A stretch of DNA of 64,000 bases from Saprospiraceae bacterium (GTDB taxonomy: Bacteria; Bacteroidota; Bacteroidia; Chitinophagales; Saprospiraceae): positions 1 through 64,000 of the forward strand of contig JAHDBH010000004.1 of assembly GCA_020630495.1 (NCBI GenBank), read 5' to 3'. Below are positions 45,013-48,649 of this stretch, in pieces (position 1 is the first letter of the stretch; each line of letters starts with the position of its first letter). A model generated the notes under the pieces. It was not told the DNA's origin. It did no database searches and saw nothing but the letters and a program-made list of their open reading frames with translations. The translations under genes and the position numbers were made by a program.

Positions 45013-45600
45013 ATGGTACCGATACGATTAAGTCTTACCGTAGCTCTATGCTGTATAGCCATAGGGTGGAGTACTGCTCAGATTAAATACGAAAAGGAAG
45101 AGAAAACTGATGTAGAGCAAGTACCTGCAGCAGCAGTTGACTTTATACACGCTGTGGATTCCCTGCTTGTAGGACGCTGGTACAGAGAAATATCAAATCA
45201 AGGAACTAGCTACGAGTGGAAAGGAAAAATAAATGATCAGTGTACGAGCATAGAATTTGATCAAGATGGATCCTTGCAAGATGTAGAGATCTTGAGAAAA
45301 TTTGCGAAGCTCCCTCTCGATCTGATGGAGATACTGCAGAAATCGCTGAGCACGAGATACCAGCGATATAGCGTGAGAAGATGCCAAGAGCAATGGGCTG
45401 GTACGAGTGTGGCTATCAAGAATGCGCTGATAAGGAGTTCGCCTACAGATGATCTAAGCGTGAAGTATGAGCTCGTCGTACGAGCAAGACACGGACATAA
45501 GGATGATACCGAGCGCTATGAGCTGTTGCTGAAACTGGATGGAAGCATAGTACGCGAGGCTATGCTCGTACGATCATTATCTGACCACATGGACTACTGA
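45013..45600 (+). CDS. Exported protein of unknown function
   Basis: This 195-residue protein has a signal peptide (RLSLTVALCCIAIGWSTAQ) and a mature region with repeats of charged strands and helices (CTSIEFDQDGSLQDVEILRK; SVKYELVVRARHGHKDDTER). The pattern is reminiscent of PepSY-like or FAS-related periplasmic proteins but I do not recognise a family with confidence. It ends one base before the next start, so the two are co-transcribed. Confidence 0.7.
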   Translation: MVPIRLSLTVALCCIAIGWSTAQIKYEKEEKTDVEQVPAAAVDFIHAVDSLLVGRWYREISNQGTSYEWKGKINDQCTSIEFDQDGSLQDVEILRKFAKLPLDLMEILQKSLSTRYQRYSVRRCQEQWAGTSVAIKNALIRSSPTDDLSVKYELVVRARHGHKDDTERYELLLKLDGSIVREAMLVRSLSDHMDY

Positions 45601-46268
45601 TGAGAGTCGCAGTATCAGTTTTCTTTATCATGATCCTTCATAGCGGCTATGGCCAGACGCAGCTCGATATCGGCGTCTTGCCCAAGGTAGTCCTCAGTAC
45701 GGAGATATCAGATCATCTGTCTATAGCTGGATCCGTACAGACACGGCTCCTGCGAGAGGGAGTAGGTCAAGACGACTCAAAATTTGAATACTCTCTCACG
45801 GATCTCACGGGAATCGTGGAATACCGTCTACGAGGCGGAACACGTCTGGCTGTAGGCTATTTATTTAGATCAGTGAAGGAAGACATCGTCCATCGTGCCA
45901 TTCAGCAGGTGAGCTGGACTAGGACGATGAGTAAGTACCGAATTGGTCACCGCCTTCGCACAGATCAGACATTTGCGCCAGATGGTGGAGTGTCATACCG
46001 ATTGCGGTATAGACTCAGTGTTCAGGTGCCACTTGATGGCTTAGAGTTGGATCCTCGAGAGCTCTATCTGAAATTGGCAACTGAGAAATTGCATCAATGG
46101 TCAAGCGGTGATTTTTCGACAGAGCTGCGTGTGATCCCTGCGCTGGGATACTACGGGAATGATAAGTCCAAGATAGAGCTGGGTACGGACGCGCGCTATG
46201 ATTCACTCTTTTCAGTAGATGATACACTAACCGTGTGGGGTACTATCTCTTACTACTTGAGGTTTTAA
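45600..46268 (+). CDS. DUF2490-like outer membrane protein
   Basis: This 222-residue protein has a signal peptide (VAVSVFFIMILHSGYGQ) and beta strands alternating with turns throughout, including IVEYRLRGGTRLAVGYLFRS, YRIGHRLRTDQTFAPDGGVS and YRLRYRLSVQVPLDGLEL, ending TVWGTISYYLRF. That series matches the DUF2490 family of small outer-membrane beta-barrels in Bacteroidota, whose function is unknown. Its ATG shares one base with the previous stop. Downstream lies the second dyad repeat array. Confidence 0.75.
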   Translation: MRVAVSVFFIMILHSGYGQTQLDIGVLPKVVLSTEISDHLSIAGSVQTRLLREGVGQDDSKFEYSLTDLTGIVEYRLRGGTRLAVGYLFRSVKEDIVHRAIQQVSWTRTMSKYRIGHRLRTDQTFAPDGGVSYRLRYRLSVQVPLDGLELDPRELYLKLATEKLHQWSSGDFSTELRVIPALGYYGNDKSKIELGTDARYDSLFSVDDTLTVWGTISYYLRF

Positions 46269-46362
46269 TGAGGTGATAAGAGGCACGTCTTGCAGTGCAA
46301 TGTGAGCGAACTGTGGTGCATCGCAAGCTCGCTCAGATGCTGTGCTCCGTGAGATTAAATGA

Positions 46363-46991
46363 CAGTTTACGGTAAGCTGTCAGATAGCTGTTGAGTACTG
46401 CTCGGCCTAGGGTCGTCGTGGGACGTATCACAGTCGGACAGTAGAGAAATACAATTTACAGTAAGCTGTCAGCTTGCTATGGACACATCTGCAATCTGAA
46501 TTCAACGCTCCTTGGCTTTCGGAGCCAAATAAGGAAGAATAGTAGTATCTAGCAAGCTGTCAAGTTGCTTTGAAATAGTGAGCGGCAGCGGATTGTCATC
46601 AGAGTCTACTAGGATAGAAGTACAAATTACAGTAAGCTGTCAGATAGCTGTTGAGTACTGCTCGGCCTAGGGTCGTCGTGGGACGTATCACAGTCGGACA
46701 GTAGAGAAATACAGTTTACAGTAAGCTGTCAGATAGCTGTTGAGCACTGCTCAGTTTAGGTCTTGTCGTAGGACGTATCACAGTTGGACAGTGGAGAAAT
46801 ACAATTTACAGTAAGCTGTCAATTAGCTACATAGGACCACGCGACCTTGAGACGTTTTGCCTCGGAAATCTTCATCAGATAAGATAGCCGTGCGCAAAGT
46901 GCTGAGCCGTCAGTACGAATGTGAAGCCAGATGTATAGTGAGCGCTGCGCGGAAACGAAAAAAAGCAAATACAATTTACAGTAAATTGTCA
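46363..46991. repeat. Second dyad repeat array between convergent genes
   Basis: Six clear copies of a core start at 46363, 46452, 46623, 46712, 46802 and 46972. The typical core is CAATTTACAGTAAGCTGTCA, and a seventh, decayed copy (AGCAAGCTGTCA) lies at 46551-46562. The core is a dyad around one central base: the last copy is perfect, ACAATTTACAGTAAATTGT at 46971-46989, and the others keep 7-8 of 9 pairs. Copy spacing is 89, 91, 80, 89, 90 and 170 bp, so the period is about 85-90 bp. Three whole units (46363-46451, 46623-46711 and 46712-46801) are close copies; the first and second are identical over about 80 bp from GTAAGCTGTC onward. The other units are unrelated to them, and one contains the hairpin TTGGCT-ttcgg-AGCCAA at 46512-46528. 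No coding frame is convincing. The array lies between the ends of convergent genes. Confidence 0.88.
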
Positions 46992-47025
46992 ACTCAGCCC
47001 TGGAACCTTAGCTGCAGTACTCTAC

Positions 47026-47430
47026 TCACCACTCCGATGACCTGATATAGCAAGTCCCCAGAAATAGTGCTACTAAGTCCTCCTCCTGATTATAAACATG
47101 CACCTCATAGCGACCCGTCTTGTGACTGCGATGGACTTCACGTGCCTGGGCCCGCAACTCATCACCGATCTGGACCGCCTGGAAGTGAGAGATAGAACTC
47201 TCTATACTTACAGCCAGTCGGCCATGGCTATTGCACGCAAAGGCAAATGCGCTATCTGCTAGGCTGTAGCTGATACCGCCATGAGCTATCTTCATACCAT
47301 TGCACATCTCAGGCCTCACGGTCATGAGCAGATCGCACAGTCCCAGCTCTATGCGCGATACCTCCGCACCGAGCCAGTGGCTATACTGGTCATGAGACAT
47401 CATCTCTGCTACGATATCTGCTGGTGTCAT
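47026..47430 (-). CDS. PaaI-like hotdog thioesterase
   Basis: This 134-residue hotdog-fold thioesterase resembles PaaI, which hydrolyses CoA esters of ring-hydroxylated phenylacetates. The typical region is NGMKIAHGGISYSLADSAFA (with the HGG-xx-x-x-x-L-AD pattern), and VSIESSISHFQAVQIGDELR follows. The frame is open to 47481, but ATG 47430 gives the normal length. It lies 10 nt after the paaJ-like gene and is read in the same direction, so the two are one operon. Confidence 0.8.
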   Translation of the reverse strand: MTPADIVAEMMSHDQYSHWLGAEVSRIELGLCDLLMTVRPEMCNGMKIAHGGISYSLADSAFAFACNSHGRLAVSIESSISHFQAVQIGDELRAQAREVHRSHKTGRYEVHVYNQEEDLVALFLGTCYIRSSEW

Positions 47431-47440
47431 GAGGTGGAGA

Positions 47441-48649
47441 TTATGCTTTTTCGAGTATGACAGCGTAGCCTTGCCCCACACCTACGCACATAGTGCAGAG
47501 CGCATATCTTCCAGAAGACTGAGAGAGACTTAGCGCAGCGGTGTGTGTGATACGTGTACCTGAGGCTCCTAGAGGATGACCTATGGAGATGGCTCCACCG
47601 TGGATATTGACGCGTGGGTCATCATCTGCTAGGCCCATCTCACGAGTGCATGCCAGAGACTGAGCGGCAAATGCTTCATTGAGCTCTATGATATCCATAT
47701 CGCTCAGGCTGAGACCTGCTCGCTTCAGTGCTAGGGCGGAGGCATGTACTGGTCCTATGCCCATGATACGCGGCTCCACTCCAGATACGGCGCTTGCAAC
47801 TATACGCGCAAGGGGCGTGAGACCATGATCCTTGATTCCTTGCTCGCTGGCTATGAGCACTGCGGCTGCCCCATCATTGAGACCAGAGGCATTACCAGCA
47901 GTGACGGTGCCGCCCACGGCTTTGAAGGCCGTGCGAAGCTTAGCGAGTCCTTCTAGTGTGCTGTTGCCACGGACAAATTCGTCTTGGTCAAAGATCAGTG
48001 GCTCTTGCTTTCGTCGAGGAATACTGATAGGGATGATCTCTTCGGCAAGGCGGCCGCTGGCTTGAGCAGCAGAGGCCTTCTGCTGTGATCTGAGCGCAAA
48101 TGCATCTTGATCCTCTCTCGAGATATCGTAGAGTTCAGCCAGATTTTCAGCAGTTTGACCCATGCCTTCTGTACCATAGAGTGCTTCCATCCGCGGATTG
48201 ACAAATCTCCAGCCAAAACTGCTATCATGCATCTGCGCATCTCTACCGTAGGCTTTGCTGACCTTGGAGATGACCCATGGTCCGCGTGTCATGTGCTCTA
48301 CGCCACCACTGATATATACATCGTCCTCTCCCGCTGCGATAGCTCTATGAGCGTGTACGATCGAGCTCATGCCAGATGCGCATAGTCTATTCACAGTTTC
48401 GCCAGGTACAGACCACGGTAGATCTGCCAGGAGTAGAGCCATCCGCGCCACATTTCTATTGTCTTCTCCAGCCTGATTAGCACATCCAAGTATGACATCG
48501 CCTATAGCTGCAGGATCCATAGATGGGTGGCGTGCAACGAGAGCCTTGAGTACGTGGGCTGCCAGATCATCCGTCCGTACAGGAGATAGCGTACCTCCAA
48601 ATTTTCCAAATGCTGATCTACAGCCATCTATGATATATCCGCTTTTCAT
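47441..48649 (-). CDS. Acetyl-CoA acyltransferase, PaaJ/PcaF-like
   Basis: This 402-residue thiolase has the nucleophilic cysteine in NRLCASGMSSIVHAHRAIAA and the downstream catalytic block IELNEAFAAQSLACTREMGL, IHGGAISIGHPLGASGTRIT and CTMCVGVGQGYAVILEKA. The segment MTRGPWVISKVSKAYGRDAQ then MHDSSFGWRFVNPRM is typical of 3-oxoadipyl-CoA thiolases (PaaJ/PcaF), which cleave to succinyl-CoA and acetyl-CoA in phenylacetate or protocatechuate breakdown. A PaaI-like gene lies directly downstream, which favours phenylacetate-type catabolism. The remaining paa genes are not in this window. Gene symbol left blank because PaaJ, PcaF and FadA-like roles cannot be separated by sequence alone. Confidence 0.88.
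   Translation of the reverse strand: MKSGYIIDGCRSAFGKFGGTLSPVRTDDLAAHVLKALVARHPSMDPAAIGDVILGCANQAGEDNRNVARMALLLADLPWSVPGETVNRLCASGMSSIVHAHRAIAAGEDDVYISGGVEHMTRGPWVISKVSKAYGRDAQMHDSSFGWRFVNPRMEALYGTEGMGQTAENLAELYDISREDQDAFALRSQQKASAAQASGRLAEEIIPISIPRRKQEPLIFDQDEFVRGNSTLEGLAKLRTAFKAVGGTVTAGNASGLNDGAAAVLIASEQGIKDHGLTPLARIVASAVSGVEPRIMGIGPVHASALALKRAGLSLSDMDIIELNEAFAAQSLACTREMGLADDDPRVNIHGGAISIGHPLGASGTRITHTAALSLSQSSGRYALCTMCVGVGQGYAVILEKA

Follow-up and report, generated by a model that had tools for sequence, protein, structure and literature searches.

Architecture of the palindrome array

The window, that is, the whole stretch of 64,000 nucleotides analysed here, belongs to contig C54, one of the 331 contigs that make up an assembly of 3.53 Mb. 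It carries an array of short palindromic cores at 46362–46989, six of them clear and one decayed, placed between the convergent ends of a plus-strand gene (46268) and a minus-strand gene (47026). The locus contains the following parts.

45600..46268, plus strand: left neighbour gene, 222 aa, ending 93 bp before core 1
46242..46361, unstranded: left array flank, GC skew +0.18 over 120 bp, taking in the left gene's final bases
46353..46483, plus strand: duplicated segment, 91% identity to 46613-46743, spacing 260
46362..46380, plus strand: core 1, ACAGTTTACGGTAAGCTGT
46451..46469, plus strand: core 2, ACAATTTACAGTAAGCTGT
46542..46560, plus strand: core 3, decayed, in register, with mainly the right part AAGCTGTCA retained
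46616..46828, plus strand: tandem repeat, period 90, 2.4 copies
46622..46640, plus strand: core 4, ACAAATTACAGTAAGCTGT
46711..46729, plus strand: core 5, ACAGTTTACAGTAAGCTGT
46801..46819, plus strand: core 6, ACAATTTACAGTAAGCTGT
46971..46989, unstranded: core 7, perfect dyad, ACAATTTACAGTAAATTGT
46990..47109, unstranded: right array flank, GC skew -0.39 over 120 bp, taking in the right gene's end
47026..47481, minus strand: right neighbour gene, 151 aa, presumably thioesterase-like, ending about 37 bp past core 7

The core sequence of the array is given as ACAnTTTACNGTAAAn'TGT. By allowing up to three mismatches to the pattern ACARNTTACAGTAARYTGT, 12 strand matches were obtained in the window, every one inside the array, against a mean of 0.14 and a maximum of 2 in 100 shuffles. 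Core mapping and this shuffle control bear out the seven-copy array, with six clear cores and one decayed, that a preliminary description of the locus had reported; the array is real, and its start has to be moved from 46363 to 46362. The convergent gene ends, the near-constant period (core-to-core spacings of 89, 91, 80, 89, 90 and 170), the dyad that is perfect in the last copy and the three nearly identical units were likewise described correctly. Core 7 forms the full 19-bp dyad and the other five clear cores pair at 7 or 8 of 9 positions. The near-copy units begin at 46362, 46622 and 46711 (z 22–28), and the remaining three intervals show no clear similarity to these units or to one another, apart from the core. 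In a search of 46200–47200 against Rfam, nothing reached the gathering score, the one match being at chance level (17.1 bits, gathering score 40).

The same description had proposed a modular array with exchangeable unit content, and this proposal was not supported. Exchangeable cassettes or attC-like modules were evaluated by comparing 17 intervals from eight clusters. Clear similarity (z of at least 18) was limited to tandem copies, three in the window array and two in C201, and to one repeat that C301 and C303 share at their contig ends. Of the 272 comparisons made, no other pair exceeded z 4.6.

Distribution of the core in the genome

Exact matches to the symmetric pattern ACANNTTACNGTAANNTGT number 18 in the genome, against none for the reversed pattern. 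A search of 59 other genomes, including one from the same genus, gave no exact site, and no close relative was confirmed in the wider genome-contig collection. On viral contigs, 21 stretches match the core pattern, which is about chance level by a rough hand estimate. The literature search for the core letters gave seven papers: in the one on a bacterial regulator the letters lie inside a NiaR site of different layout (PMC5343564), and the other six have unrelated titles.

For further analysis mismatches were allowed, giving a list of 32 sites (26 distinct sequences). The genome search for orphan units that the preliminary description had suggested located sites or degraded sites on no fewer than 15 further contigs of this assembly. 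Clusters beyond the window lie on C201 (gaps 176, 92, 92, 99), C198 (81, 81), C151, C126, C256 and C303. The 17 cluster spacings favour a common unit of about 94 bp over jittered spacings (p 0.0065), a period that is given no weight because several of the spacings are tandem copies. Contigs also end in or beside palindrome clusters (L045 33–51 and 416–434, L044 5–23, L022 67–85), and further clusters may therefore be missing between contigs. Two of these contig-end clusters carry the longer dyad AACATACATTTTACAGTAAGATGTATGTT.

Within the core, positions 4 and 16 covary. They are complementary in 27 of the 32 sites, with all four pair types represented (shuffle mean 8.2, maximum 16), and in 22 of the 26 distinct sequences (shuffle mean 6.6); the other eight pairs are nearly invariant or pair no more often than in shuffles. 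Such a pattern would be expected if a dimer recognises the core and its specificity has diverged; a hairpin of RNA or single-stranded DNA (ssDNA) would also produce base-pair covariation.

A winged-helix/PRTase gene family beside the palindromes

The first link between the palindrome and a gene family came from two sites found directly before paralogous genes. By protein search, ten gene loci were identified, nine full-length and one a 76-aa fragment (C70), the members being 40–50% identical to the first member. The dyad lies shortly upstream of the start codon, with exact cores at C219 and both C111 loci, near-exact cores at C79, C95 and C261, a variant at C307 and degraded forms at C275 and C234; one is also present at the C70 fragment. 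An exact or near-exact palindrome is accordingly found just upstream in six of the nine full-length paralogs. The first reading had missed that the core is the promoter-proximal dyad of this dispersed family, and also that it is the centre of the strand-composition flip described below.

The encoded protein combines an N-terminal winged helix (most fold-search matches span residues 1–67) with a C-terminal, weakly ComF-like phosphoribosyltransferase (PRTase) region, which carries a DD...[ST]GxT-like loop of the PRPP type. The ComF model TIGR00201 is matched by 8 of the 10 members (best E 7.6e-6), at scores below the curated one (member 1, 21.8 bits vs a cut-off of 233.55). In a structure model of middling quality (mean pLDDT 70), residues 152–320 match Helicobacter pylori ComF 7p0h with Z 9.6, rmsd 3.9 and 143 aligned residues. 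ComF was the only PRTase-type match among the 50 listed by the fold search, and the absence of other PRTases from these mostly winged-helix matches does not exclude them.

The family is rare elsewhere, with matches in 3 of 147 other relatives, one per genome, and in 4 of 394 other genomes across the class, where each has at least one copy (up to five candidates scored per genome). Seven homolog loci in other genomes were read for upstream dyads. Homologs with an SRQ recognition helix carry a TTTACnGTAA dyad in the promoter at both loci, from two other genomes; those with SKQ carry a GACTATTGATAGT-type dyad at all three loci; and the TKQ homolog (L073) has a third dyad type. At the L191 homolog no start codon was located. 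When the last 60 bp were shuffled 300 times, no more than 3 shuffles equalled the dyad at five of the six homologs examined in this way. The dyad of L189 (SKQ) was reached by 159 of 300 and is therefore supported only by its shared letters. The change of the dyad with the recognition helix is the strongest evidence for the dyad as the predicted operator of the family. In addition, the residue in column 58 of the wing alignment follows the core class: it is A where the core is of the A/T or T/A kind (three loci) and S or T where it is of C type (seven loci), an agreement (10/10) that was found post hoc and for which the classes of C275 and C234 were read from degraded dyads.

Outside this pairing, another type of dyad, TTTACACYNNRGTGTAAA, forms a four-copy cluster on C220 (L141 19369–19902) and has one copy at C70:15043–15060, with no additional genome site at up to one mismatch. 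The C70 copy adjoins the truncated winged-helix paralog, and the flank skew of the C220 cluster is mild (+0.19 left, -0.11 right, with 98 bp read on the right); this dyad may be part of another regulator-plus-array pair. The top over-represented octamers in a genome sample (window, L029, L132–L151) are CCTTTCGG/CCGAAAGG, at 27 vs 6.4 expected, together with related CTTTCG forms. Similar GAAA-loop hairpins, probably a widely used type of terminator, are located at the ends of several winged-helix genes.

Dispersed intergenic palindromes near gene ends with a cognate multicopy gene would also be expected of a REP/REPIN-type element mobilised by a tyrosine (Y1) transposase. The transposase search, likewise suggested beforehand, gave a single Y1_Tnp match in the genome, a 101-aa open frame at C36:2809–3009, yet no palindrome is found on C36 at up to two mismatches, and the ends of the listed sites, read by eye, carry no GTAG or CGTC tag. 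The core also resembles none of the REP families that were tested. Such an origin is highly improbable, in agreement with the initial view that these are not ordinary REP elements.

Strand composition around gene-linked palindromes

GC skew flips sharply at all nine full-length gene-linked sites, from G-rich to C-rich when read left to right (left +0.26 to +0.74, right -0.53 to -0.66). The flip is strongest at 25–100 bp from the palindrome and is gone by about 200 bp. Eight of the nine loci are near symmetric (+0.52 to +0.74 left, -0.53 to -0.66 right). The lopsided one, C307 (+0.26/-0.54), contains a tRNA-Pro gene in its left flank that may resist change. On the strand with its 3' end toward the palindrome, the composition 25–75 bp out is about 0.46 G and 0.07 C. 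At 25–100 bp from six gene-linked sites, the same strand shows G of 0.44–0.47 and C of 0.07–0.11, against a background of about 0.24 each, with A down to 0.12–0.20 and T at 0.26–0.35. Depletion of A and C on the strands ending 3' at the site is seen on both sides of the palindrome.

In a scan of 211,212 positions, which excluded C111b and C275, the seven highest flips (1.27, 1.25, 1.21, 1.14, 1.13, 1.05 and 0.80) all lay next to gene-linked sites, seven in number, at distances of up to about 20 bp. The control maximum was 0.72 in 393,600 positions from 20 further 20-kb stretches, hand-picked from long contigs. The strongest control skew pair, in L150 (C219), reads +0.72 at 2071 and -0.86 at 2285 and is presumably a single C-rich stretch of about 200 bp. 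The C70 fragment, with values of -0.13/-0.31 and a left flank that is only partly readable, was kept out of the skew tests. At family homologs in six other genomes no flip was found; the skew is therefore not inherent to the family, and something lineage-specific, e.g. copy number, would have to matter.

Several simpler sources of the skew were considered and rejected. A general property of gene starts was discarded, since the first 150 bp of 127 starts in the scanned loci, family genes included, have a mean skew of -0.03 (sd 0.19). Inheritance with a mobile left flank was discarded as well, the left flanks of six loci being unlike one another (mean z 0.7), one pair excepted. Right flanks are alike across loci because they are paralogous coding sequence, and the sequence downstream of the family genes shows no likeness between loci. 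Selection for a Chi-like motif was also considered: the palindrome flanks do hold more GTGGTG than expected (20 vs 5.4), but the genome sample showed no excess of any of the six E. coli-like octamers tried. The excepted pair, C111a and C261 (L050, L049), consists of unrelated host gene ends with a common G-rich stretch of about 14 bp (z 8.4); the same bias may have made them converge.

The sign of the flip bears on a replication-based explanation. Operator arrays with bound repressor act as roadblocks to replication forks, and a protein tightly bound to the palindrome could arrest forks so that the lagging-strand template before the block stays single-stranded and mutates, each site becoming a local terminus. 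A change from G-rich to C-rich is of the terminus type, not the origin type, as this reading predicts. However, forks normally arrive from one side, and the flip is near symmetric at eight of nine gene-linked loci. Fork arrest is unlikely on this balance.

Host genes and comparison with relatives

The left-neighbour host genes at the gene-linked sites are unrelated to each other. In five flanking plus-strand genes, third-position GC skew is -0.04 at more than 300 bp from the site and climbs to +0.68 in the nearest 160 bp. The one minus-strand host gene tested has the same strand G-rich, with a third-position skew of +0.65 near (27 codons) and +0.32 far. On these codon positions, the composition flip is not due to coding content. 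Three host genes were further compared with 16 orthologs in relatives, leaving out ortholog L087, which has no aligned end. Their end-proximal third-position skew is +0.50 to +0.68 here and -0.36 to +0.36 there. For the C261 host gene, six of eight orthologs are already positive near the end (+0.20 to +0.36), and the contrast is therefore small, making this the weakest case.

Third-position differences from the same-genus relative run from A/C to G/T versus G/T to A/C at 50:13 in the last 50 codons and at 257:219 farther away (Fisher p 1.2e-4), counts that come from one relative only and are not polarised by an outgroup. The same relative has an empty site corresponding to C111b, where gene order is kept on both sides and the flanking stops lie about 15 bp apart. 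The last 150 bp of the flanking gene have a skew of +0.56 here and +0.01 in the relative. The element thus seems to have been gained or lost between intact neighbours, with the skew apparently accompanying its presence. C111b is the one clean empty-site comparison; C95 is syntenic on the left side only, and for C261 the relative yielded just the left gene.

These host genes also bear on selection rather than mutation as the source of the skew, namely that RNA transcribed outward is kept C-rich and G-poor, for Rho utilisation or as unstructured leaders, around an ordinary operator or bidirectional promoter. Outward RNA would indeed be C/A-rich on both sides, and C/A-rich RNA is a hallmark of Rho sites. 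Nevertheless, such selection would need to have altered protein ends as well as third codon positions in upstream genes that are unrelated (five plus-strand, one minus-strand), and no such skew exists at the 127 gene starts generally or at the homologs in other genomes. We regard it as quite unlikely.

Skew at orphan clusters

Several palindrome clusters, the window array among them, have no family gene found alongside. The flanks of the window array also flip (0.57, p 0.0015 vs equal-length control spans). Flips at the other orphan loci are 0.79 at C201 (p 0.0001), 0.70 at C151 (0.0004), 0.48 at C198 (0.0054), 0.46 at C256 (0.0072), 0.37 at C126 (0.022) and 0.20 at the single site C71 (0.14). 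The mean over these seven loci is 0.51, against a null maximum of 0.275 in 20,000 draws; the contig-end clusters C33, C301 and C303 have insufficient flank and were kept out. At poor core matches, namely C71 and three others, the flip is absent. Inside clusters, 12 of 17 intervals follow the expected half-interval skew, a weak trend (binomial p 0.07, Wilcoxon p 0.025), and both C198 intervals run against it. Orphan-locus flips are weaker than gene-linked ones. Since orphan clusters flip, the effect seems independent of a gene in cis, though it is strongest there. These clusters may be relics of lost genes; a protein search at E 0.01 found no gene remnants within them on the cluster contigs.

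A plainer account is that the array is a decaying tandem duplication of one regulator site, with no present function and a mild skew that is itself a relic. The three near-identical units, the one decayed core and the weaker flip agree with it. Against it, six cores still match though three of the six intervening units show no clear resemblance to the others. Only a modest probability is assigned to this account.

Proposed mechanism

The core lies upstream of the paralogs and related dyads lie at distant homologs, and the array is therefore read as an orphan site cluster. The fuller reading, which we hold with about even confidence, is that it is a partly tandem-expanded orphan cluster of the winged-helix/PRTase family's putative binding sites, and that occupied sites are recurrently broken or exposed as ssDNA. 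According to this proposal, the winged helix would bind the palindrome as a dimer and control its own gene. Orphan arrays would be extra, ectopic or relic, predicted binding sites that probably grew in part via tandem duplication of units of about 90 bp. Less certainly, occupied palindromes may be recurrently broken and resected, or otherwise become single-stranded so that their 3'-ended strands lie exposed. If repair then removed A and C from these strands in particular, the skew would result, with its maximum in the nearest 150 bp or so on either side. H. pylori ComFC binds ssDNA (PMC9005727), which makes the ComF-like domain a candidate link to ssDNA, though its sequence match to ComF is weak.

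Recurrent single-strand exposure is the best candidate mechanism, as yet unproven. It is favoured on polarity: the flip resembles that of resected breaks, whereas outward transcription would leave the other strand exposed and a replication origin would reverse the sign of the skew. The G excess requires A>G, T>G and C>G changes, so that cytosine deamination alone is insufficient. No nuclease for the candidate breaks was found.

In bacteria, strand-composition flips are usually taken as signs of replication origins and termini on the scale of the chromosome. The flip described here belongs to a 19-bp site, has a scale of 150 bp and recurs at nine gene-linked loci. Should it reflect repeated breakage or exposure of ssDNA, such sites could be found in bacterial genomes from sequence alone, and the system would connect a regulator family, its operators and DNA damage.

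Comparison with known systems

PurR of Bacillus subtilis has a DNA-binding winged helix followed by a PRTase domain. The family shares this order, the DD...[ST]GxT-like loop and a putative operator upstream of the gene, and its upstream dyad tracks the recognition helix in independent homologs, as is expected of an autoregulated winged-helix/PRTase protein. It differs in its ten divergent copies within this one genome, its orphan operator arrays and its skew flips. PurR is mentioned in the ComFC paper, and a PRTase-like fold with a PRPP-type loop is shared with ComFC of natural transformation (PMC9005727). The family, however, has a winged helix where ComFC has an N-terminal zinc-finger region, and its sequence score is far under the ComF cut-off.

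REP/RAYT systems (REPtrons) similarly have clustered palindromes dispersed between genes and a multicopy gene beside its own palindrome variant. They are defined by a RAYT flanked by the palindrome, with a GTAG or CGTC tetranucleotide at one end (PMC3733652). In contrast, the gene described here is not a Y1 transposase, the tag is lacking, the sites number about 30 and the palindrome lies on one side of the gene only. With Tus/Ter termini, the sign of the composition flip is shared, but the present sites are symmetric and scattered and the skew extends only about 200 bp.

The closest parallel in footprint comes from human PRDM9 hotspots. There, breaks are described as resected 5' to 3', with C>N and A>N marking the forward strand and G>N and T>N the reverse; strand asymmetry is absent from the central 100 bp on each side and extends over about 2 kb (PMC7615360). 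As there, a motif lies at the centre of a strand-asymmetric footprint, and C and A are lost on the strand ending 3' at the centre, seen here as composition and as differences from one relative. Neither an asymmetry-free central 100 bp nor a span of about 2 kb was found; the bacterial footprint spans about 150–200 bp and is strongest where human hotspots show no asymmetry. It is, moreover, a composition difference and not a set of observed new mutations, and no nuclease is known for it.

In the titles and opening abstract text of open-access papers, no described system was found that combines a winged helix, a PRTase and an operator with such a composition footprint. Each part alone is of a known type, and no described kind tested combines all features, on which we propose the system as new, its break mechanism being a hypothesis. 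Tentatively, and as a possibility somewhat short of even, it may be a bacterial counterpart of directed hotspots, in which repeated opening or breakage at the sites of a spreading, dispersed winged-helix/ComF-like family that binds palindromes leaves a lasting mutational scar with strand polarity, about 150 bp long per side, with the window array as a stand-alone multi-site hotspot.
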